Shown: one piece after another, positions 5,616 through 16,280 of the stretch
Layout: each line of letters starts with the position of its first letter
Numbering within the stretch: position 1 is the stretch's first letter
Origin: Deltaproteobacteria bacterium
GTDB taxonomy: Bacteria > Desulfobacterota > Desulfovibrionia > Desulfovibrionales > Desulfovibrionaceae
Length of the DNA: 18,239 nt
Assembly: GCA_031253875.1 (NCBI GenBank)
Contig: JAIRVN010000163.1
Location: 1-18,239, forward strand
Direction: 5' to 3'
Position numbers and translations under genes: made by a program
Notes under the pieces: model-generated
The model's database searches: none
What the model saw: the letters and a program-made list of their open reading frames with translations, nothing else
Told to the model about the DNA's origin: nothing

Positions 5616-7307
5616 CTACTCACGGCGGGATATTGCTTCTCCGTATTCTTCTCCCATCAGGGCATCCGCGGCGTAGCTGCCCAGCGGCTTGTAGAAATAG
5701 AAGCCCTGTATCAGCAGGCGGTCAATGTCGCCCAGCAGGGCAAGCTGCGTTTGCCGCTCCACGCCCTCCACCACAAGGGTGTACCCCAGATCTGTGCCGA
5801 GAGTAATAATATGCCTGAGGAGCACCCTGGAAATGGCGTCTTTCTCCAGGTCTTGCACAAAACTGCGGTCAATCTTGAGAGCATCGAGGGGCAACAGCTT
5901 CAGGTAACTCAAGGAAGAATATCCTGTGCCGAAGTCATCCAGACAAAAACGCACACCCTGCTGGCGAAGCCGGTTGATATTGTGCAGCGCCTTGGCAAAA
6001 TCGCGCAGAAATATGGACTCTGTCACTTCAAAAAACAACTGGGCGCCCTCAATGCCGGTACGGTACAGCGTGTCGCGCACACTGTCGGGAAAATCATGTG
6101 CTACAAGCTGATGCGGGGAGACATTGATATGCATGCAGATGTCAGTGCCGTACTCGTTCCGCCAGCGGCGCAGTTGGCGGCAGGCAGTCTCCAGGACAAA
6201 CTGTCCGAGGCTTTTGATAAAACCTGTTTTTTCAGCAATGGGGATGAAGATGGACGGCGACACGGCCTTGCCCTGATGCGACCAGCGCGCAAGGGCTTCA
6301 AAGGCATACAGGCCGCTGTCTGCCGGTCGCATAATGGGTTGATAGACTACGCTGAAGCCTTTCAAGTCGTGTTTTTTCTGCAAAACAACGGCCAGAGAGA
6401 GCTCCTTGCGGGTTTTTTCCATCATTTTTTTGGAAAAAAATTTGCAGGAAAGGCTGTTACCGGTTGTTTTGGCCATGCTGGTGGCCAGTCCAACGTCACG
6501 GAGAACGGACTCCGCATGGTTGTACTCGCTCAAGGGGAATATAACGCCGAAATGGGCCGAAATCGCGCCCAACTGCTTATCCCAGACTGTAAAAGGGGTC
6601 TCGAACTTGGCACGGATGCGCTTTATAATTCTTATCAATCCCGGGCCGCCCTCCGGATCGCGCAGAAGTACGGAAAATTCATCACTGCCCGTGCGGCCCA
6701 CCGTATCCGTCTCACGGCAACAGGCCACGAGGGTTGCGGCCGTGTGGCGCAGCAGCATGTCGCCGAAATCACGCCCGTAATGCTGGTTGATGTTGTACAA
6801 GGCGTCCATATCAAGGCTGATAACCGCGTACTGCTCCGGATATCTTTTTGCGGCATGCAGGGCCGCCCCCACTTTGTTAATAAAGAGCGACCTGTTGGGC
6901 AAGCCGGTCAGGGAATCGAAAAAAGCCAGATGTGACAGTTCGGCTTCCTTGAACTTCAGGCTGGTGATATCCGTGAGGTAGGCCACGTAATAGCGTGTCT
7001 TGCCGTCGGCATCCGGGATGCGCCGCACATCCGCCTTGATCCAGCGTAACGGGTCAGCTGCGTGGGGCAGGCGGCACTCGAAATTGCTGATCACGCCCTG
7101 AGCTTCGACTTGCTGCATGAGAGCGTCGGATATTTCGGAGAAGGCAAAAGAAAGAGCGCCCGCATCGTCGATTGCGGAAAAGGGCGTTCCCGTTTTAAGG
7201 CCCATCATATGGAGGAAGGCGGCATTGGCTTGCACCAGGCGCCGTTCTGGCGTCCAGCAGGCGAATCCTTCATTGAAACCGTCAAAAATTTCCCGAGTAT
7301 CAAGCAT
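5616..7307 (-). CDS. PAS-GGDEF-EAL protein, predicted c-di-GMP phosphodiesterase with degenerate GGDEF
   Basis: 563-residue cytoplasmic signalling protein with no transmembrane segment. PAS/PAC sensor at about 5-118, GGDEF domain at about 127-290, EAL domain at about 305-555. The cyclase site reads RTGSDEF (205-211): the second glycine of GGDEF is serine, and the INDxxGH region reads INQHYGR, so cyclase activity is doubtful. The EAL site looks complete: E337-A-L, R341, N395, E427, D457-D458 in DDFGTGYSS, K478, E514 and Q534. The likely activity is hydrolysis of c-di-GMP to pGpG, possibly with the GGDEF domain as a GTP sensor. Only a weak GGTAGAG precedes the ATG. It is the last gene of a run of same-direction signalling genes, 24 bases after the small exported protein. 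Confidence 0.93.
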   Translation of the reverse strand: MLDTREIFDGFNEGFACWTPERRLVQANAAFLHMMGLKTGTPFSAIDDAGALSFAFSEISDALMQQVEAQGVISNFECRLPHAADPLRWIKADVRRIPDADGKTRYYVAYLTDITSLKFKEAELSHLAFFDSLTGLPNRSLFINKVGAALHAAKRYPEQYAVISLDMDALYNINQHYGRDFGDMLLRHTAATLVACCRETDTVGRTGSDEFSVLLRDPEGGPGLIRIIKRIRAKFETPFTVWDKQLGAISAHFGVIFPLSEYNHAESVLRDVGLATSMAKTTGNSLSCKFFSKKMMEKTRKELSLAVVLQKKHDLKGFSVVYQPIMRPADSGLYAFEALARWSHQGKAVSPSIFIPIAEKTGFIKSLGQFVLETACRQLRRWRNEYGTDICMHINVSPHQLVAHDFPDSVRDTLYRTGIEGAQLFFEVTESIFLRDFAKALHNINRLRQQGVRFCLDDFGTGYSSLSYLKLLPLDALKIDRSFVQDLEKDAISRVLLRHIITLGTDLGYTLVVEGVERQTQLALLGDIDRLLIQGFYFYKPLGSYAADALMGEEYGEAISRRE

Positions 7308-7612: not shown

Positions 7613-8767
7613 TTATAAACCGCCGGAGACTGCTGTTACGACACTCTCATGGGGTTCCTGATCCTGGAAGCGTTGCGCGATAGCTTGGAATGCGCCTTGT
7701 AGCTGCAAAAACGCATCAACAACGTCCGGATCGAACTGTCCGCCCCGGCCCTGCCGGATCATCGCGGCAACCTCATCATGCGGCAGGGCGGGTTTGTACA
7801 CTCTGCGGCTGGTCAGCGCGTCATACACGTCGGCAAGGGACATAAGCCGCGCCGGCAGCGGAATGGCTTCTCCCGCGACACCCTGCGGATAGCCTTTGCC
7901 ATCCCAGCGTTCGTGGTGTCCGTAGGCGATCTCCCGCGCCAGACGCAAAAAGGAGTTGCCGCCCAGCTTGCGCTCCGCCGCAGCCAGGGCGTCGCGACCG
8001 CGGACGGTGTGGAGCTTCATTTCCGTAAATTCTTCATCCGTGAGGCGATCGGGCTTCAGCAAGATGGAATCGGGAATGCTCACCTTACCCACGTCATGCA
8101 GGGGAGCGGAAAGGTACAAAAGCTCTATGGTATTCTTATCAAGCTGCAGGGCATCTTTGGAATTCTCGGCCCTGTATTCGGCCAGTAAGCGCACAGAGTT
8201 CTGCGTGCGCTTGATGTGGCCTCCGGTCTCGGGATCGCGCCCTTCCGCGAGTGTCGCCCTGGCTTCAATGGTCACTTCCTTGGTCAGGGCCAGCTCTTGC
8301 GTGCGTTCACGCACCAATTCGTCAAGCCTGTCCCTGTGACGCTTGAGTTCAAGCTGGTTGGCCACCCGGTTCTTCACCAAAGAAGCCTTGAAAGGTTTGC
8401 CGATATAGTCCACAGCCCCCAAAGACAAGCCGCGGGCTTCATCCACCGCTTCGCTCTGGCCGGTGACAAACACTATCGGAATATTGTGGGTGCGCAGGTT
8501 CTCCTTCAAACGTCGGCACACCTCATATCCGTCCATACCCGGCATGATCACGTCCAACAGAATGATATCCGGCGGCGGCGCGCTCTCCGTTGCGATACGC
8601 AAGGCGCCTTCACCGTTGCGGGCGAACCTGATGATGTACTCGTCTTTCAGAGTTTCCACCAAAATGCGGATATTCTCCGGAGCATCGTCAACAATCAGCA
8701 CTCTGCTCTGCTGGCTGACAGGGGATGCGCTTTCATGCGCATCCTGCGGCTGCAGTATAGCAGTCAT
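7613..8767 (-). CDS. Response regulator REC-HD-GYP, predicted c-di-GMP phosphodiesterase (RpfG-like)
   Basis: 384 residues. Receiver domain at about 20-140 with acidic pair D27-D28, phospho-acceptor D72 in LLDVIMPGMDG, T102 and K124 of the KPF motif. A linker helix (140-165) leads to the HD-GYP domain at about 165-365 with H224-D225 (PLHDVGKVSIPD), HHERWDGKGYP (284-294) and the trailing LADVYDALTS. All expected metal ligands are visible, so c-di-GMP hydrolysis controlled by phosphorylation is expected. AAGGAG eight bases before the ATG supports the start. It sits 74 bases downstream of the PAS-REC-Hpt gene, a plausible phosphate donor or relay partner. No cognate histidine kinase is next to it. 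Confidence 0.95.
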   Translation of the reverse strand: MTAILQPQDAHESASPVSQQSRVLIVDDAPENIRILVETLKDEYIIRFARNGEGALRIATESAPPPDIILLDVIMPGMDGYEVCRRLKENLRTHNIPIVFVTGQSEAVDEARGLSLGAVDYIGKPFKASLVKNRVANQLELKRHRDRLDELVRERTQELALTKEVTIEARATLAEGRDPETGGHIKRTQNSVRLLAEYRAENSKDALQLDKNTIELLYLSAPLHDVGKVSIPDSILLKPDRLTDEEFTEMKLHTVRGRDALAAAERKLGGNSFLRLAREIAYGHHERWDGKGYPQGVAGEAIPLPARLMSLADVYDALTSRRVYKPALPHDEVAAMIRQGRGGQFDPDVVDAFLQLQGAFQAIAQRFQDQEPHESVVTAVSGGL

Positions 8768-8841: not shown

Positions 8842-10422
8842 CTAGATGGCGGCGAGCAGAAGCCCGCTTTTTTCCGCCACGGCCTCGCTGTCAAATTCTT
8901 CCAACGCCGCGGTTATTTCTCTGAAATGCGCGGAAACCACAGTGCCTTCCACGACGGGGGCCAACGCCAGAAGCTGGCATTGGGCGCCGTACCAGTCAGT
9001 CTGCATCAGGGTGGGCAAGGCGTCGAGCACTGCGGCGATGTGTTGCGTATCGGCAGCCGATACGGATTGCTGCCCCACACGCACATCGTCCTGCTTCGGC
9101 AGGCTGTCCAGGGAATCCAGAACTTCGCACAGCAACGACTCGTAACGCGCAAGCATGTCTGCCCGTGCTGCGTTCTTTTTTATGGCGCTCTCCAACTCTC
9201 CCGCGACCGCCGCCAACGCATGCGCGCCCAGGTTGGCAGCCACGCCCTTGGCGGTATGCGCCAGACGCAGTGCTTCTTCATGCGCGGAAGCGTCATATTC
9301 CATGCGTTGCACCGTATCTCGAAGCTCCGCGCCCGAACGGCTGTAATGCTTGGCAAATCTGTCCAACAAGCGCAGATACAGCTCCCGGTTGCCCGCCACA
9401 TTGGACAGGCCTGCCTGCACGTCCAAACCTTTCAAGTTACGCAGAATGTCCTGCTCCGGCGCTTTCTCGGGAGAGTCAGCTTGCGGAGAAAGCTGATCAT
9501 CTGTGGCCGCACTCCGGCTGTCAATCACGGGATCCGGCGCCGTTGCAGCCGGGCGCACGCTCCCGGGGAGCCAAGCATTCAGTGCTGCGTATAACAACTG
9601 CGGCTCAATGGGTTTGGTAAGATGTTCATTCATTCCCGCAGTCAGGCTTTTTTCTCGGTCACTGCTCATGGCATGCGCCGTCATGGCAAGAATGGGTATC
9701 GTATCCGCTCCCGCCTTTCCGCTTTCCCGAATGGCCCGCGTTGCGGTCACTCCATCCATCACGGGCATCTGGATATCCATAAGAATAAGATCGAAGTGCT
9801 GCTGCAGAAAGAGATCCACCGCTTCCTGTCCGTTGGAAGCCACTGCAGCCTCCACACCGACATTTTCCAGCAATTCTACGGCTATCTGCTGATTGATCTC
9901 ATTATCTTCCGCAAGGAGTATCTGTGCCTTGGACGTGGCGAATCGTGCGCCGTCTTCCTGGAGAGACGAGGGCATGCCTTTGATGTTCCGGTCGGCGCTT
10001 TGTCCGGGAGATTCCGGAGGAGAACACGGCGCCGGCGCGGGATGTCCGGAATCCGAAAGATGCAGGACGGCATAGTGTACGGTATCGTCGCCAAATCCCG
10101 TCATCCAGAGAAAACAAGCCTCTTCTCCGCCGTAGCCGGCCATGCGCGCAACCAGCCTGATCCGGCCTTCATTCCCGTCTGCGGCATCCCAGCACAAGGT
10201 GGCATTCCTGCCGCCCGGATCGGCATCTTCTCCCTCGGACAACGCAACGTCGGGCACAATACGCAAGCCCTCAACGCCTGCAGCAAGCTGCGTACGTTCC
10301 AAAAAGACCGTGTTGGCAAAACACAGCCGTCCATGCGCCACAACGGCAGCGCCGACAGGACATCCTTCCAGCACTGCATGCAGGTTGGCAAGATCAAGAT
10401 CCGGGACATGTTCGCAACGCAT
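8842..10422 (-). CDS. PAS-like/REC/Hpt phosphorelay protein lacking a kinase domain
   Basis: 526 residues. An N-terminal PAS-like segment (about 11-120) and a Pro/Ser-rich linker lead to a receiver domain at about 166-285 with E172-D173, phospho-acceptor D216 in LMDIQMPVMDG, T248 and K270. A second linker precedes an Hpt domain at about 345-440 with H389 in AHTAKGVAANLGA, and a C-terminal helical segment of the kind often following Hpt in BarA-like kinases. The layout equals the C-terminal half of a hybrid histidine kinase, but no H-box/ATPase domains lie between PAS and REC. The ATG at 10422 has no Shine-Dalgarno. No other good start is present before the PAS region. It probably passes phosphate to the downstream REC-HD-GYP protein; that is inference. 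Confidence 0.88.
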   Translation of the reverse strand: MRCEHVPDLDLANLHAVLEGCPVGAAVVAHGRLCFANTVFLERTQLAAGVEGLRIVPDVALSEGEDADPGGRNATLCWDAADGNEGRIRLVARMAGYGGEEACFLWMTGFGDDTVHYAVLHLSDSGHPAPAPCSPPESPGQSADRNIKGMPSSLQEDGARFATSKAQILLAEDNEINQQIAVELLENVGVEAAVASNGQEAVDLFLQQHFDLILMDIQMPVMDGVTATRAIRESGKAGADTIPILAMTAHAMSSDREKSLTAGMNEHLTKPIEPQLLYAALNAWLPGSVRPAATAPDPVIDSRSAATDDQLSPQADSPEKAPEQDILRNLKGLDVQAGLSNVAGNRELYLRLLDRFAKHYSRSGAELRDTVQRMEYDASAHEEALRLAHTAKGVAANLGAHALAAVAGELESAIKKNAARADMLARYESLLCEVLDSLDSLPKQDDVRVGQQSVSAADTQHIAAVLDALPTLMQTDWYGAQCQLLALAPVVEGTVVSAHFREITAALEEFDSEAVAEKSGLLLAAI

Positions 10423-10503: not shown

Positions 10504-11142
10504 TTAACGCTCTTTTTTCTGCTTTCCGGCCCCGGCCCGGCCTTGCGCCGCAAGCCGCTCGTATGCGCCCCCCGAAGCGTGCGCCAATGCCCGGCCGAAA
10601 TCTGCCAGCAGACGGCTCAGGGCGCGTACCATGCTCTCGTGACTGTCTCCGGCATCCGTTTCCCCCGTGAACAGCCCTTGAGCGAGCAAGGCGCCTTCTC
10701 TGTCCGCAATCCGCCAACGCGCGCTGATTTCCGCGCTGCTGCCGGGAGCTCCGTCCAAGCGCAGGAGGGCGACATCCATTTGCAGCGCCGCATCCGCCGC
10801 ATCCCGCCAGGGCAGATTCAGACCTTTTTCCTGAAGGAGCGGACGCATACTCTCTTCCAGCAGGCGCGGCACAGCCTTGTTCAAGGGTTCAGCCCAGAGG
10901 TGGTATTCAGCCACCGTAATCTGCACGGCCCCGCCGGAACGCAGAACAAGCCCATCTCTATCCAGATACGACGGCAGGGAAAGCTGGCGCAGCACAACAG
11001 CCGGCCTGTCTCCCGGCACTGGGGCGACAAGCGGCTGTTCTTCTCCGAGCAGGTAATATCGGGGCTGCGGACTCCGTCCGCCGCAAGCCGCCAGACAGGC
11101 CAGCGCAAACAGCACTGCCGGGAATACATGGATTTTTTTCAT
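10504..11142 (-). CDS. PqiC/YmbA-like lipoprotein of MCE transport system (ABC-type transport auxiliary)
   Basis: 212 residues with signal peptide and lipobox L17-A-A-C20. The mature start PRYYLLG and the following VVLRQLSLPSYLDRDGLVLR and EYHLWAEPLN stretches are typical of the PqiC/DUF330 family of outer-membrane lipoproteins that work with MCE proteins in lipid transfer across the periplasm. The C-terminus is basic (KQKKER). Its ATG overlaps the MCE gene stop as ATGA; AAAGGAAA lies about ten bases upstream. Last gene of the four-gene operon. Confidence 0.85.
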   Translation of the reverse strand: MKKIHVFPAVLFALACLAACGGRSPQPRYYLLGEEQPLVAPVPGDRPAVVLRQLSLPSYLDRDGLVLRSGGAVQITVAEYHLWAEPLNKAVPRLLEESMRPLLQEKGLNLPWRDAADAALQMDVALLRLDGAPGSSAEISARWRIADREGALLAQGLFTGETDAGDSHESMVRALSRLLADFGRALAHASGGAYERLAAQGRAGAGKQKKER

Positions 11143-12116
11143 GGCTGCTGCTTTCCTTTCCCCCGCAGCAGGCTCTCCGGGCTGCGCTCCAGGGTTTTCG
11201 CCAAGCTGCGTACAGCTCTGGCGGCTTCGGTCAGTTCATGCACGGCGCTCTGCACATCCCGCAGCATCGCGGACTTGGGAGAGCTCAGACGGCTTGTGTT
11301 GAGAAAAAGTTTTTCCGCGCGATCCGCAGCCTTGCTGAAACTGTCCAGAGCAAGGCTCATGTCGCGGCCGAGCCTGGGCACTTCCTGGGCTGTCCTGTCC
11401 GCCGCCGTTTCAATCCGCTGCAGGGTCCTGCGGGCGCTTTCCACCAGAGCCGGCATGTTCTGTGCCACGGCGGAGAGTTCGTCCGCAGTCCGTTTAAGCC
11501 CGGCAAGAGTGTCTTTCAGTTCCTCGCTGCCCATCACGCTGGTGATGGCTTCCAACGCCTGAAAAAGGCTGCGCGCAATCTTGTCAATGTTGATTCTGGC
11601 AAGCGCCCGCGAAAATTCCTCCAACGGCGATGCCAGGGTGGGAATTTCAGTGGAGGGATCCGCCGAGTGATAGCGGAGGGGCGCTTCAGGAAAAAAATCC
11701 AGTTCAATGCGCGCCTGGCCTGTAAGCAAGCTGACAATCGCTATGCGCGCGCGCAATCCCCGTCCCACCATACTCTGTATCATCCTGTCGCGCGCTTCAT
11801 TCGTCATTCCGCCGGAGTCCCCGATGATGTTCTTGATATTGTCTCTAAAAATATCAATGCCTACAGGTATGATGATGGTGTCGTCCCTGTCGTGCGCCAC
11901 CAGGGAGATGCTCGTGACCCTGCCGAGCGGCACGCCCCTGAACACCACCGGCGCTCCCACGGCAAGTCCGGCGACCGACCCTTCAAAATAGAGCATGTAA
12001 TCTTCGTTGGCCTTGAAAAATGCATCGCCCGCCAGCAAACCCACGCCCGCCACAAGCAGGGCGAAGGCTATCGCTGCAAAGATGCCCACTTGCAACTGAA
12101 GGCGTTTATCAGGCAT
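11139..12116 (-). CDS. mlaD: MlaD-family MCE lipid-transport protein
   Basis: 325 residues. One N-terminal transmembrane helix (about 11-30), an MCE domain at about 38-145 with the hallmark VGAPVVFRGVPLGRV (53-67), and a long helical C-terminal region (about 165-315) likely to form the coiled extension seen in PqiB- or LetB-like proteins. It is expected to be inner-membrane anchored and to bind phospholipid between the permease and outer-membrane partners. Start: an ATG at 12122 touches the AGGAGG directly, whereas the ATG at 12116 has a 6-base spacer, so 12116 is chosen. It overlaps the ATPase gene by eight bases. Confidence 0.92.
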   Translation of the reverse strand: MPDKRLQLQVGIFAAIAFALLVAGVGLLAGDAFFKANEDYMLYFEGSVAGLAVGAPVVFRGVPLGRVTSISLVAHDRDDTIIIPVGIDIFRDNIKNIIGDSGGMTNEARDRMIQSMVGRGLRARIAIVSLLTGQARIELDFFPEAPLRYHSADPSTEIPTLASPLEEFSRALARINIDKIARSLFQALEAITSVMGSEELKDTLAGLKRTADELSAVAQNMPALVESARRTLQRIETAADRTAQEVPRLGRDMSLALDSFSKAADRAEKLFLNTSRLSSPKSAMLRDVQSAVHELTEAARAVRSLAKTLERSPESLLRGKGKQQP

Positions 12117-12891
12117 GCCCATCCTCCTGTCCGGCTGCGCCCCGGGTCAAAAAATTCTTTATATACGCTGAGTTCGTGTTGCGCAGAAGCTCTTTCGGGT
12201 CACCGCCGCCGTCGGAGCTTCGTGTTGTATTGTTCAAAAAGATGGAATTGTTGCCGATGGCGAAAATGCTCGCCAGTTCATGCGTCACCACAACAAAGGT
12301 CATATCCAGGCTCTGGCGCAACTGCAGGATCAGGGCATCCAGATTGCGCGCGCTGACAGGATCGAGACCGGCGGACGGCTCGTCAAAAAATACGATGTGC
12401 GGATCCAGGGCCAGTGCTCTGGCAAGTCCGGCCCGCTTGCGCATCCCTCCGCTTATTTCGGAAGGATAGTATGCTTCAAAGCCCGCAAGCCCCACCAGGG
12501 CAAGCTTCAGGCAGGCCTGCTCATAAATTTCCCCTTCGTTGAGCGTGGTGTACCGGGAGAGCGGCAAGGCGACATTCTCCGCCAGCGTCATGGACGTCCA
12601 CAAGGCGCCGCCCTGGAACAGCACGCCGATACTCCGCAGCAGACGTTGGCGTTCGTCTTCCGTACAGCGCCAGAAATCCGTTTCGCCATAGCGCACGGTA
12701 CCGGTCACGGGAGCCTTCAGCCCCATGATCACGCGCAACAGCGTGCTTTTTCCGCAGCCGCTGCCTCCCATGATGATAAAAATATCCCCCCGCCGCACCG
12801 TAAAATTCAGATCGCGCATGAGTACGAAATCGCCGTAGCCCAGGGTGAGATCCCTCACCTCAATGCAGGAAGGGGCCGCCGCTCCGTTCAT
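12109..12891 (-). CDS. mlaF: MlaF-family ABC transporter ATP-binding protein
   Basis: 260 residues. Powers phospholipid transport by the MlaE permease. Seen: Walker A GGSGCGKST (42-50), Q-loop Q93, signature ISGGMRKRAGLARAL (146-160), Walker B IVFFDEPSAGLDP (166-178) and switch H204. The start at 12891 forms ATGA with the permease stop and directly precedes the conserved IEVRDLTLGYG; a longer in-frame reading runs back into the permease gene and is not homologous. No strong ribosome binding site is visible, so coupling to the permease is likely. The C-terminus overlaps the MCE gene. Confidence 0.95.
   Translation of the reverse strand: MNGAAAPSCIEVRDLTLGYGDFVLMRDLNFTVRRGDIFIIMGGSGCGKSTLLRVIMGLKAPVTGTVRYGETDFWRCTEDERQRLLRSIGVLFQGGALWTSMTLAENVALPLSRYTTLNEGEIYEQACLKLALVGLAGFEAYYPSEISGGMRKRAGLARALALDPHIVFFDEPSAGLDPVSARNLDALILQLRQSLDMTFVVVTHELASIFAIGNNSIFLNNTTRSSDGGGDPKELLRNTNSAYIKNFLTRGAAGQEDGHA
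12123..12128 (-). promoter_or_regulatory. Ribosome binding site deciding the MCE gene start
   Basis: AGGAGG on the minus strand, inside the 3' end of the ATPase gene. Spacing is zero bases to the ATG at 12122 and six bases to the ATG at 12116, which favours the latter. Confidence 0.7.
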
Positions 12892-14018
12892 ATCTGTACC
12901 AGATTGCAAAATATGGTAATGATGGCTGTCGCCAGGATGATGCATACAATGGACGACACCACCGCCGATGTCGCCGCCTTGCCCACGGCCTCCGCGCTGC
13001 GCCCACAGCGCATGCCCTGGTAGCAGCCGCACAAGCTGACGATGACCCCGTAGCTTGTCGCATACACGAGCCCCACAAGAAGCTGCCGCAGCTCGACTGC
13101 GTTGATGGTCGCCTGGTAATAAGCATGCGCCGGGAGATCCAGCATGAAGACCCCCACGAGAAACCCGCCTGCAACTCCCATCAGATCCGCATAGAGCGTA
13201 AGCAGGGGCACCATGAGGGACAAGGCCAGCACTCTCGGCAACACCAGATAATCCATGGGGGAGATGCCGAAGGTGATCAGCGCGTCCACCTCCTCATCCA
13301 CCTGCATGGTGCCTATAATGGCCGCATAGGCCGCGCCGGTGCGCCCGGCCATGACCACTCCCACCAGCACCGGCCCCATCACGCGCAGCATGCCTATGCC
13401 TACAAGCCCCGCCACATATATCTGCGCTCCGAAACGCGTCAGTTGCACGGCGCCCATGAAGGCCAGAATCATCCCGAACAGCGTGCTGGTCAACATGATA
13501 ATCGGCAGCGCATGCAGACCGCATTCCAAAGCCGCACGCAACAGGTCTTCCAGGCGCATGTCGCTTTTGCCGCGCAGCAATCGCCAGAACGACAACACAA
13601 GCGCACCCTGGAAACGCAGAAGCTCCGCAAACCGGGGGGGAATGTCCAGAACAAGCCCGCCCAGCCGGACATACAACCCGTCCTCGCTCCGGCGTTCTTT
13701 CGTCCCTGAACCGGGAGGCACCGCGAAGGCCATGTCCACAAGGCGTTGCAGACCTTCAGGCAGCGCATCGCGGGAAATGGACAGCGCATGTGCTTTGGCC
13801 GCACGCTCAAGCCGCACGACAAACGCGAGCAGGCTGGTGTCCCAGTGCTTCAGATCCCCTGCCTCATACACAATCCTGGAAATACGTCCATCCGTAAACG
13901 CCGAAGGCAAGCCGCCGAGATCCGCGGGGATCCCGGCTCCCATCCGCCATACTCCTCCCAACCGGATGTGGAGGGTATCTTCATCGCGGAAATACGACAC
14001 AAGTGGGCAGGCTTCCAT
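12888..14018 (-). CDS. mlaE: STAS-MlaE fused phospholipid ABC permease
   Basis: 376 residues. An N-terminal STAS domain (about 10-105, with AGDLKHWDTSLLAF at 53-66), corresponding to a fused MlaB, and an MlaE permease at about 150-375 with several membrane helices and the conserved AGRTGAAYAAIIGTMQV (224-240). First gene of the operon permease-ATPase-MCE-lipoprotein. Separate mlaB and mlaC genes are absent here. The ATG at 14018 is the first start after an in-frame stop ten bases upstream, and has no Shine-Dalgarno. Confidence 0.94.
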   Translation of the reverse strand: MEACPLVSYFRDEDTLHIRLGGVWRMGAGIPADLGGLPSAFTDGRISRIVYEAGDLKHWDTSLLAFVVRLERAAKAHALSISRDALPEGLQRLVDMAFAVPPGSGTKERRSEDGLYVRLGGLVLDIPPRFAELLRFQGALVLSFWRLLRGKSDMRLEDLLRAALECGLHALPIIMLTSTLFGMILAFMGAVQLTRFGAQIYVAGLVGIGMLRVMGPVLVGVVMAGRTGAAYAAIIGTMQVDEEVDALITFGISPMDYLVLPRVLALSLMVPLLTLYADLMGVAGGFLVGVFMLDLPAHAYYQATINAVELRQLLVGLVYATSYGVIVSLCGCYQGMRCGRSAEAVGKAATSAVVSSIVCIILATAIITIFCNLVQI

Positions 14019-14127: not shown

Positions 14128-14150
14128 CCTTGTGTTCCGGAGGCACACCC

Positions 14151-14747
14151 ATGCATCGTTCACTTTTTTTCCTTCTGGCGGGACTTTTGCTGGTCATCGG
14201 ACTTGCGGCCTGCGCCACTCCCTACGGAGTGTATGCCGACAAACGCCCGATCGAAGTGCTCAAGGATGACTCCATGGTGCGATCCAGGGCAGGCGATGCG
14301 CTCAGAGCCCAGGGCTTCACCGGTGTCAACGAACTTACCGTGCACGCCTATTTCGGCAAGGTTTTTTTGACGGGCGAAGTGCCGGAAAACCAGCGCGCCA
14401 AGGCCGTGCAAACAGCCCAAGGGGTACGGGGCGCCAGAAGCGTCACCCCGCACTGGTTTACGTCTCTGAAGGCCGATACCGAGGGTGACGCCGCGATCAA
14501 GCTGCGCCTGGAAAAGAATCTGGTCAGCTCTGACGGCGTGACGTCAAGCCGTATCGATTACGTGGTCAACAGCGGCCGCGTGGTGCTGCTCGGCGTGGTG
14601 GAAAGCGAAGCGGAGCGCGCTGTGGCCATTAAAGCCGCACGCGGAACCCACGGCGTGCGATCCGTCACCTCGTATTTATTCATGCGCGATACGGCCTCCG
14701 CCCCGTTACAAGCGCCCCAGACGGAGCAAAAACCCGCTTCCGTGTAA
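14151..14747 (+). CDS. BON-domain lipoprotein (DolP/YraP-like)
   Basis: 198 residues with signal peptide and lipobox L18-A-A-C21. Two BON domains at about 42-105 (YFGKVFLTGEV at 68-78) and 113-178 (GRVVLLGVVESEAERA at 142-157), then a Pro/Gln-rich tail. The two-BON lipoprotein layout equals DolP, an outer-membrane protein that binds anionic phospholipid and supports envelope integrity. The start at 14151 is preferred over an ATG 21 bases upstream because GGAGG lies eight bases before it and the signal peptide begins there. It is divergent from the mla-type operon, which fits a common envelope-lipid role. Confidence 0.88.
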   Translation: MHRSLFFLLAGLLLVIGLAACATPYGVYADKRPIEVLKDDSMVRSRAGDALRAQGFTGVNELTVHAYFGKVFLTGEVPENQRAKAVQTAQGVRGARSVTPHWFTSLKADTEGDAAIKLRLEKNLVSSDGVTSSRIDYVVNSGRVVLLGVVESEAERAVAIKAARGTHGVRSVTSYLFMRDTASAPLQAPQTEQKPASV

Positions 14748-14770: not shown

Positions 14771-15124
14771 TTAACGGATGCAGTCCAATAATTCATCCAT
14801 GCGCAACGGCTTTCTCAGCACGCGCTGCGCGCCTGCCTCATAGGCGGCGCGTTCTTCCTGATCGTCAATATGGCCGGTGAGCATGATGACCCGAATCAAA
14901 GGATGGCTCTTTTTCAGCGCGCGCAGAACTTCAAGCCCGTCCATGCCGGGCATGCGCAGATCAAGCACCACCAGCTCGGTGGGCAGTGCAACGGCAGCCA
15001 GAGCCTCGGCGCCGCTGTACACCGCCCGCACTTCAAAGCCGCGCATCTCCAGCCGGGCGGCCAGGGTGTCGGCAAAATGTTTTTCGTCATCCACAAGCAA
15101 AATCCGGAATCCAGCACCGGTCAT
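14771..15124 (-). CDS. CheY-like single-domain response regulator
   Basis: 117 residues, a receiver domain only. Acidic pair D12-D13 (LLVDDE), phospho-acceptor D55 (VVLDLRMPGMDG), T83, and K105 in the RKP motif are all present, so phosphorylation is expected. There is no output domain, so it probably acts through protein binding or as a phosphate shuttle. GAGGAG about seven bases upstream supports the ATG. It follows the GAF/DHp gene by 37 bases in the same direction; the two are probably one operon and partners. Confidence 0.93.
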   Translation of the reverse strand: MTGAGFRILLVDDEKHFADTLAARLEMRGFEVRAVYSGAEALAAVALPTELVVLDLRMPGMDGLEVLRALKKSHPLIRVIMLTGHIDDQEERAAYEAGAQRVLRKPLRMDELLDCIR

Positions 15125-15161
15125 GCAGCACTCCTCGTCTATCCAGCCGGAACATAGCGCT

Positions 15162-16280
15162 CTATTCCAGCTTCAGCACCTTGTGTCCCATGACATAATG
15201 CATCAGGCGCGGCTGTTCGACCGATTTTTTCAGGGCATTGATAATCCGGACCATGCGGAGCACACCGTTGTTCACGCCCTCAAGCTGTTCGGAAAGCTGA
15301 CCCAAGTCCGTTCGGGCAAGCAGCGCTTCAAGTTCCGCAGCCTGGGCGCGCGCGGGCGCATCCTCGGGAAGCATTGCCAGAAGCCCCTGCGAAAAATCCC
15401 GTGCCCGGCGCAAATCCGCCTCCACGTCTTCCAGCAGTTCGCCGCAAAATTCCGCGTGATTGCGCATGATGTTCAAGGCATTGTTGCCAAAGTGAGCGAC
15501 GGCGCCGGCGGCCTTTTCCAGGGTGTCCTTGGCCACGGCCACGCGGCGGCCGACCGTCAGGGAAACGATGCGCGCGAACTTGGACAGGAAGCGTTCGTCA
15601 AAACCCTCAAAACCGTATTCATTCCTGGTGTACAGCATGATCAGGCCGAAAGGCGATTGGTGTTTGTTGCTTTCGCGCAGGACAAAGGCCAGGCGGGAGC
15701 GGTAGCCCGCACTGTAGATGGAGCAATCGAGAGATTGACCGCCTTGCTCAATGGCGTGCAGGTCGTTGGAAACAACAAAACCCGCGTTTCCCTGCTTGAT
15801 TGCCTGGGCGACCGGATGTCTGGAAAAGTCCTCGTCCATAGCCCGCGAAATCAGGGGCGTGCTGTCTTCGCCCGGCGCGTCGCAAAAGTGGACGATCCAT
15901 TCCCCGTTGGCATTTCTCAAACGGCAGACGTAAAGATCCGCATGCAACGCACGCACCAGCACCTCGGCGCTTTGGCGCAGCACCTCCTCCGGCGGCGCCA
16001 TGCGATCTCCGATCATGAGCAGTTCATTGGAGAGTTGCAGGAGCAGTTCCGTATCGTCCTGCATGGCTGTAATGGCCGCCAACAGGGCCAGGAGGCAACG
16101 CCAGCTCTTGATGTGCGACTCGCCTATCGCATGGCGGTAGCCGGAATCGAGGGCACGCTTCGCCGCAGGCAGCAGGGCCAGAACCGCGGCGCGTATCGGC
16201 GGCGGCGCATATTGCAGAAAGCGGATGATTTCCGCCCGGACAAGGGCATCTTGTGAAGCAACTGTCATCATGCAGGGCAT
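15162..16280 (-). CDS. GAF-domain protein with histidine-kinase-like DHp helices but no ATPase domain
   Basis: 372 residues, soluble. N-terminal helical part (1-90), GAF-like sensor at about 95-250, then an antiparallel helix pair at about 255-355. Helix one carries GAVAHFGNNALNIM (259-272), which looks like the H-box AHDFNNLL of HisKA with H263 kept but the following acid replaced by Phe. Helix two has GVLRMVRIINALKKS (339-353), like the end of a DHp domain. The protein ends soon after, with no N, G1 or G2 boxes. There is no room for a lost ATPase domain before the CheY-like gene. It may be a phosphotransfer or scaffold protein rather than a kinase. Starts at 16280, 16271 or 16268 are all possible; none has a Shine-Dalgarno. 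Confidence 0.85.
   Translation of the reverse strand: MPCMMTVASQDALVRAEIIRFLQYAPPPIRAAVLALLPAAKRALDSGYRHAIGESHIKSWRCLLALLAAITAMQDDTELLLQLSNELLMIGDRMAPPEEVLRQSAEVLVRALHADLYVCRLRNANGEWIVHFCDAPGEDSTPLISRAMDEDFSRHPVAQAIKQGNAGFVVSNDLHAIEQGGQSLDCSIYSAGYRSRLAFVLRESNKHQSPFGLIMLYTRNEYGFEGFDERFLSKFARIVSLTVGRRVAVAKDTLEKAAGAVAHFGNNALNIMRNHAEFCGELLEDVEADLRRARDFSQGLLAMLPEDAPARAQAAELEALLARTDLGQLSEQLEGVNNGVLRMVRIINALKKSVEQPRLMHYVMGHKVLKLE

Follow-up and report, generated by a model that had tools for sequence, protein, structure and literature searches.

DHp hairpins mediate dimerisation, pseudo-kinases are known to exist, and in Spo0B and ChpT, which are kinase-derived proteins of DHp type, a conserved His is present in the absence of kinase activity, together with a degenerate CA-like C-terminal domain and an acid at the position following the His (H+1). 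A further kinase-derived protein, PhyT of Sphingomonas, is described in the available portion of the source as taking phosphate from SdrG, a single-domain regulator, and passing it on to PhyR via a conserved His; it is membrane-bound, and its authors suspect its catalytic domain to be degenerate (PMC5898713). For kinases of the HisKA type, the accessible part of the mutagenesis study of Willett and Kirby (2012; PMC3510030) reports that H+1 mutants lost kinase and kept phosphatase activity, that the H+2 mutant I373A had no kinase and a partly lost phosphatase activity, and that the H+4 mutant N375A lost the phosphatase, the rule being that kinase activity alone depends on the acid at H+1, and phosphatase activity alone on the Asn/Thr at H+4. 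The same excerpt states that an isolated NtrB or EnvZ DHp, a laboratory construct lacking the CA domain, suffices for phosphatase activity and gives a constitutive phosphatase phenotype, that the CA domain greatly raises the phosphatase activity of the DHp, and that the half-life of CrdA~P is 2.6 min with CrdS H371A, 0.7 min with the wild type and 53.5 min without protein (PMC3510030).

The locus compared here with these systems lies in the window, i.e., the whole stretch of 18,239 nucleotides that was analysed (contig C74 of assembly G000, 58% complete). Two genes follow each other on its minus strand, the second encoding a receiver (Response_reg domain, E 8e-27) and starting 37 bp downstream of the first, and their features are:

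15162-16280, minus strand: GAF-DHp protein of 372 aa, whose start may instead lie at 16271 or 16268
15996-16280, minus strand: N-terminal helical region, residues 1-95 (AF2 model)
15543-15995, minus strand: GAF domain, residues 96-246, with conserved C119, W128, H155, P156, C186 and R194
15210-15542, minus strand: DHp-like helical hairpin, residues 247-357 (AF2 model and alignment)
15492-15494, minus strand: H263, the histidine of an A-H-x-G-N-N motif (alignment)
15480-15491, minus strand: F264-G265-N266-N267, with no acid at H+1, Gly at H+2 and Asn at H+3 and H+4
15165-15209, minus strand: conserved C-terminal tail, residues 358-372, stopping where a CA domain would start
15125-15161, minus strand: intergenic stretch of 37 bp with a ribosome-binding-site-like gaggag
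14771-15124, minus strand: single-domain receiver, 117 aa, complete, D55 codon at 14960-14962

The gaggag between the two genes is also found in the sister genome G001 (L045), where the gap is 63 bp.

In the AF2 model the N-terminal region of the GAF-DHp protein folds into four helices (residues 10-23, 27-45, 60-72 and 75-90). The window protein has no NCBIfam match and its GAF_2 match is sub-threshold (E 0.039); by its fold the domain is a GAF domain, with free methionine sulfoxide reductases among its closest structural matches. C119 is present in 109/109 aligned rows and C186 in 101/108, H155 and W128 being conserved as well, and a redox or metal role for this domain is possible. As regards the hairpin, Pfam HisKA was matched by 11 of 36 family members (best E 2.3e-4), the window protein not being among them, and a Foldseek search with the hairpin model gave nothing significant (best E 0.16). 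Profile matches revealed a weak but consistent homology to the DHp of HisKA-type proteins that are larger and come from the same bacterial family, with H-boxes reading AHEINNPL or AHEVNNPL; 12 such weak matches were inspected, eight from genomes with a weaker match only and four from genomes with a strong match too. After helix 327-353 only 19 residues remain, and the CA-like C-terminal domain of Spo0B and ChpT is missing. A CA/HATPase_c domain was found in none of the 36 family members scanned, and precomputed annotation gave no HATPase among the 120 proteins listed of the 136 relatives retrieved by profile search.

The histidine motif is strongly conserved. In the 111-row alignment H263 is kept in 106/108 rows, G265 in 105/107, N266 in 105/107 and N267 in 105/108, the two rows without H263 failing to align through the motif, and the H-x-G-N-N motif, including both H263 and N267, is kept in all 98 genomes with a strong match. 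The residue at H+1 is variable and never acidic: it is Y in 54, F in 23, V in 17, H in 12 and W in one of the 107 aligned rows, and Y in 45, V in 43, H in 8 and F in 2 of the 98 genomes, D or E being found in none. The earlier note on this DNA, which had described a GAF protein with DHp helices and a recognisable H263, ending without an ATPase domain and carrying Phe in place of the H+1 acid, is thus borne out on each of these points, as it is on the conservation of H263 and, for the 36 members scanned, on the lack of a C-terminal ATPase. Its suggestion of a converted protein is also well supported, in that the weak but consistent DHp homology points to an ancestral sensor kinase of HisKA type whose CA domain and H+1 acid were lost. 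With the ATP-using part lost and the phosphate-handling helix kept, the proteins of this family, which come from sulfate-reducing bacteria, may serve not as kinases but as an off-switch or relay under sensor control.

The DHp and H-box of the protein, with Asn at H+3 and H+4, are shared with HisKA kinases of the CrdS, EnvZ and NtrB type; unlike these, it has no CA domain, and both the H+1 acid and the hydrophobic residue at H+2 are replaced. By the rules given in the available part of PMC3510030, a protein of this sequence should not be a kinase. The residues at the kinase-critical positions H+1 and H+2 are both lost throughout the family, and the Asn at the phosphatase position H+4 is kept. 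It is because the ATPase and the H+1 and H+2 residues are gone and H+4 is frozen that we rank first, tentatively, the reading of the GAF-DHp protein as a putative GAF-gated, kinase-dead receiver phosphatase. The protein would dimerise through its DHp hairpin, the GAF domain would sense an internal ligand or redox state and set the position of the H263/N267 face, and this face would dock a phosphorylated receiver and speed the loss of its phosphate. In the window's genus the likely client would be the co-operonic receiver. The DHp constructs of EnvZ and NtrB are engineered, whereas the GAF-DHp protein would be a natural, sensor-linked form. The phosphatase reading is weakened by the lack of the CA domain, which raises this activity in HisKA kinases, and by the absence of a significant structural match for the hairpin model. 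Moreover, H263 is strictly kept, yet CrdS H371A retains much of its phosphatase activity, and a strict His therefore also suits phosphotransfer.

The opposite view, i.e., that the gene is what is left of a decayed, non-functional kinase, could draw on the absent ATPase domain and on the fragments with a stop found in G146. The gene is nonetheless widespread: 98 of the 288 genomes from this taxonomic family give strong matches (E <= 1e-100), they are distributed over 13 genera and all have the motif, and between the window and G001 it is under purifying selection (dN/dS about 0.25, and 0.14 for the receiver). Conservation largely refutes decay, which we consider highly improbable. Besides the 98 genomes, the other 47 of the 145 that match at all do so more weakly. 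Across the phylum, 13/395 genomes match at E <= 1e-10, all of them in the window's own taxonomic family, and none of 24 genomes from other families of the same order matches.

The earlier note had also proposed that the GAF-DHp gene and the adjacent receiver gene form a two-gene phosphorelay-like module. Neighbours were counted in all 98 genomes, receivers being sought within 600 bases and SulP genes downstream, eight of the genomes offering at most 1121 bases beyond the GAF-DHp gene. A receiver follows on the same strand in 2/98, namely the window and G001, which are the only genomes of their genus (g1) in the set; the downstream region of G061 has a hybrid kinase with a receiver, encoded on the opposite strand. 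In 27 of the 43 genomes of genus g53 the GAF-DHp gene is instead followed by a same-strand SulP sulfate permease gene, although in 3 of the 16 without it (G096, G123, G156) at most 602 downstream bases are available, and several of these SulP genes overlap the GAF-DHp gene or start within a few bases of it (L058:6043-9034, L057, L020). The single g4 genome (G004) has a SulP gene in this position as well, and none was found behind the gene in the 54 genomes of the other 11 genera, five of which (G028, G196, G202, G203, G298) have little downstream sequence (0-1121 bases). The three SulP permeases examined contain Sulfate_transp and STAS domains. The two-gene module therefore stands for the window's genus, with its two genomes, and is not general across the family; likewise, of the proposed family with H263, no HATPase_c domain and a neighbouring receiver, the first two traits hold, the second in the 36 members scanned, and the third does not. 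Support for a dedicated two-gene phosphorelay is limited to one genus.

The place of the receiver behind the gene in both genomes of the window's genus, after 37 and 63 bp, favours the phosphatase reading. The neighbourhoods also count against it, given that the receiver is adjacent in 2/98 genomes and that in G089, which is 99% complete and carries the GAF gene, the six receiver matches all fall in open frames of at least 248 aa, so that no stand-alone receiver is seen there. Owing to the SulP coupling, the client in many g53 genomes would be some other receiver, and sulfate uptake may be influenced by the output. The broader proposition that the family represents a natural, sensor-gated receiver phosphatase made of a DHp only, in which the ATPase and the residues at the two kinase-critical positions were removed and the phosphatase position was frozen, and whose gene is re-used with different clients by lineage (next to SulP in one genus, next to a single-domain receiver in another), seems doubtful to us. 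The coupling to SulP-STAS genes in 27/43 g53 genomes and in G004 is also what a non-catalytic partner would lead one to expect, in which the GAF-DHp dimer would regulate kinases, receivers or SulP, the latter through its STAS domain, by docking and with no phosphate chemistry; the dimerising nature of the DHp hairpin and the existence of pseudo-kinases agree with it. Docking alone, however, explains poorly why H263 and N267 are kept in 98/98 genomes, and it has to accommodate the 54/54 genomes of the other 11 genera with no SulP behind the gene; we regard it as unlikely and rank it third.

The receiver of the window is the orthologue of REC2 in a different operon of other genera, arranged as HK-REC1-DHp-REC2-REC/HK. 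Its best g53 relatives are about 53-63% identical to it, clearly more so than the next receivers in those loci. In the loci read, the order is a Cache-type kinase, REC1, a stand-alone DHp protein, REC2 and usually a REC-HisKA-HATPase hybrid, the latter not being seen in L108-L110. The stand-alone DHp protein (family A2; 210-250 aa) sits between the two single-domain receivers (L108-L125), as exemplified by:

L113:6389-7048: A2 DHp protein
L109:12157-12795: A2 DHp protein
G000:C64 = L130:2108-2851: A2 DHp protein

H16 and N20 of A2 are invariant in 16 rows, with D or E at H+1 and N at H+4 in 16/16, and no ATPase domain was present in the three members scanned. The A2 profile matches 209/285 genomes at E <= 0.001, a count that includes weak matches to the DHp parts of kinases. 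The third example belongs to an additional, diverged copy of the HK-REC1-DHp-REC2-type operon in the window's genome, whose receiver is 42% identical to that of the window. Among the 55 g53 genomes at least 90% complete, 28 have both the GAF gene and REC2, 8 the GAF gene alone, 1 REC2 alone and 18 neither (Fisher p 2.4e-7, uncorrected for phylogeny or genome reduction), and in G105, G115 and G116 the GAF gene and the REC2 orthologue share a contig, with about 10 kb between them. This co-occurrence counts in favour of the phosphatase reading.

The comparison with Spo0B and ChpT put forward in the earlier note is plausible by analogy, as the GAF-DHp family is likewise of DHp type with a conserved His on the hairpin; it differs from them in having a GAF sensor, no CA remnant and no H+1 acid. 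PhyT and PhyP of Sphingomonas, kinase-derived and partners of a single-domain receiver, would resemble it in these respects as far as the available text of PMC5898713 describes them; compared with PhyT, the GAF-DHp protein has a GAF domain in place of the membrane part, and its chain carries no remnant beyond the hairpin. A phosphotransferase of the Spo0B/ChpT/PhyT type, in which H263 would pass a phosphoryl group between two receivers under control of the GAF domain, would account for a His kept in 98/98 genomes without an ATPase; PhyT, in the part of its description at hand, provides a kinase-derived precedent for relay via a conserved His (PMC5898713), and the orthologues of the receiver do adjoin a further small DHp protein, whose operon comprises two receivers and two kinases. 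The H+1 acid is lost in the GAF-DHp family, whereas Spo0B, ChpT and the relay-like A2 keep it, no conserved second receiver was found beside the gene, and a same-strand receiver follows it only in one genus. We rank such a transferase second and consider it rather improbable, and hold the same view of its version for the window, where the receiver at 14771-15124 would be one of the two partners. A phosphatase accounts for the lost H+1 acid no less well than a transfer of the Spo0B/ChpT type, and the A2 DHp protein is the better Spo0B/ChpT-like candidate of the two.

No such protein was recognised among the literature titles and abstract openings covered, which excluded subscription papers. The parts available of a sulfate-transporter review (PMC5840216) make no mention of a histidine kinase or response regulator, those of a Desulfovibrio response-regulator map (PMC3333781) none of GAF, phosphorelay or orphan, and those of a D. 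vulgaris mutant-library paper (PMC10102598) none of GAF or DHp. The family constitutes a natural test of the rule that H+1 serves the kinase only and H+4 the phosphatase only, the kinase half having been removed by evolution; the phosphatase reading, if true, would give two-component signalling an "off only" element under sensor control, and the SulP linkage in a sulfate-reducing genus offers a concrete physiological place to look.

Relatives of the GAF-DHp protein numbered 110 by protein search and 136 by profile search; alignment A1 comprised the window and 35 of the 110, and alignment A3 the window and 28 of 29 loci, L058 being left out. The source names are mostly Desulfovibrio or Desulfovibrionaceae among the matches listed, with divergent labels for P0005 (Betaproteobacteria), P0008, P0014, P0015 and P0020 (Desulfobulbaceae) and P0132 (Acidobacteriota); these come from assembled genomes and may be mislabelled. 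Record L002, titled as a Betaproteobacteria MAG, carries a close relative (80%), and its label is probably wrong. The gene is duplicated in tandem in G028 (L054:185-2315), and the locus tags of P0015 and P0020 suggest tandem neighbours as well. Elsewhere in the window, a protein of 526 aa that combines a receiver with an Hpt domain is encoded at 8842-10422; its neighbours are a REC-HD protein (7613-8767) and a GGDEF-EAL protein (5616-7307), and together these genes form a signalling island and may be a source of phosphate. A Mla-type lipid transport operon (MlaE, ATPase, MlaD and an auxiliary lipoprotein) occupies 10504-14018 and is adjoined by a BON-domain gene at 14130-14747.
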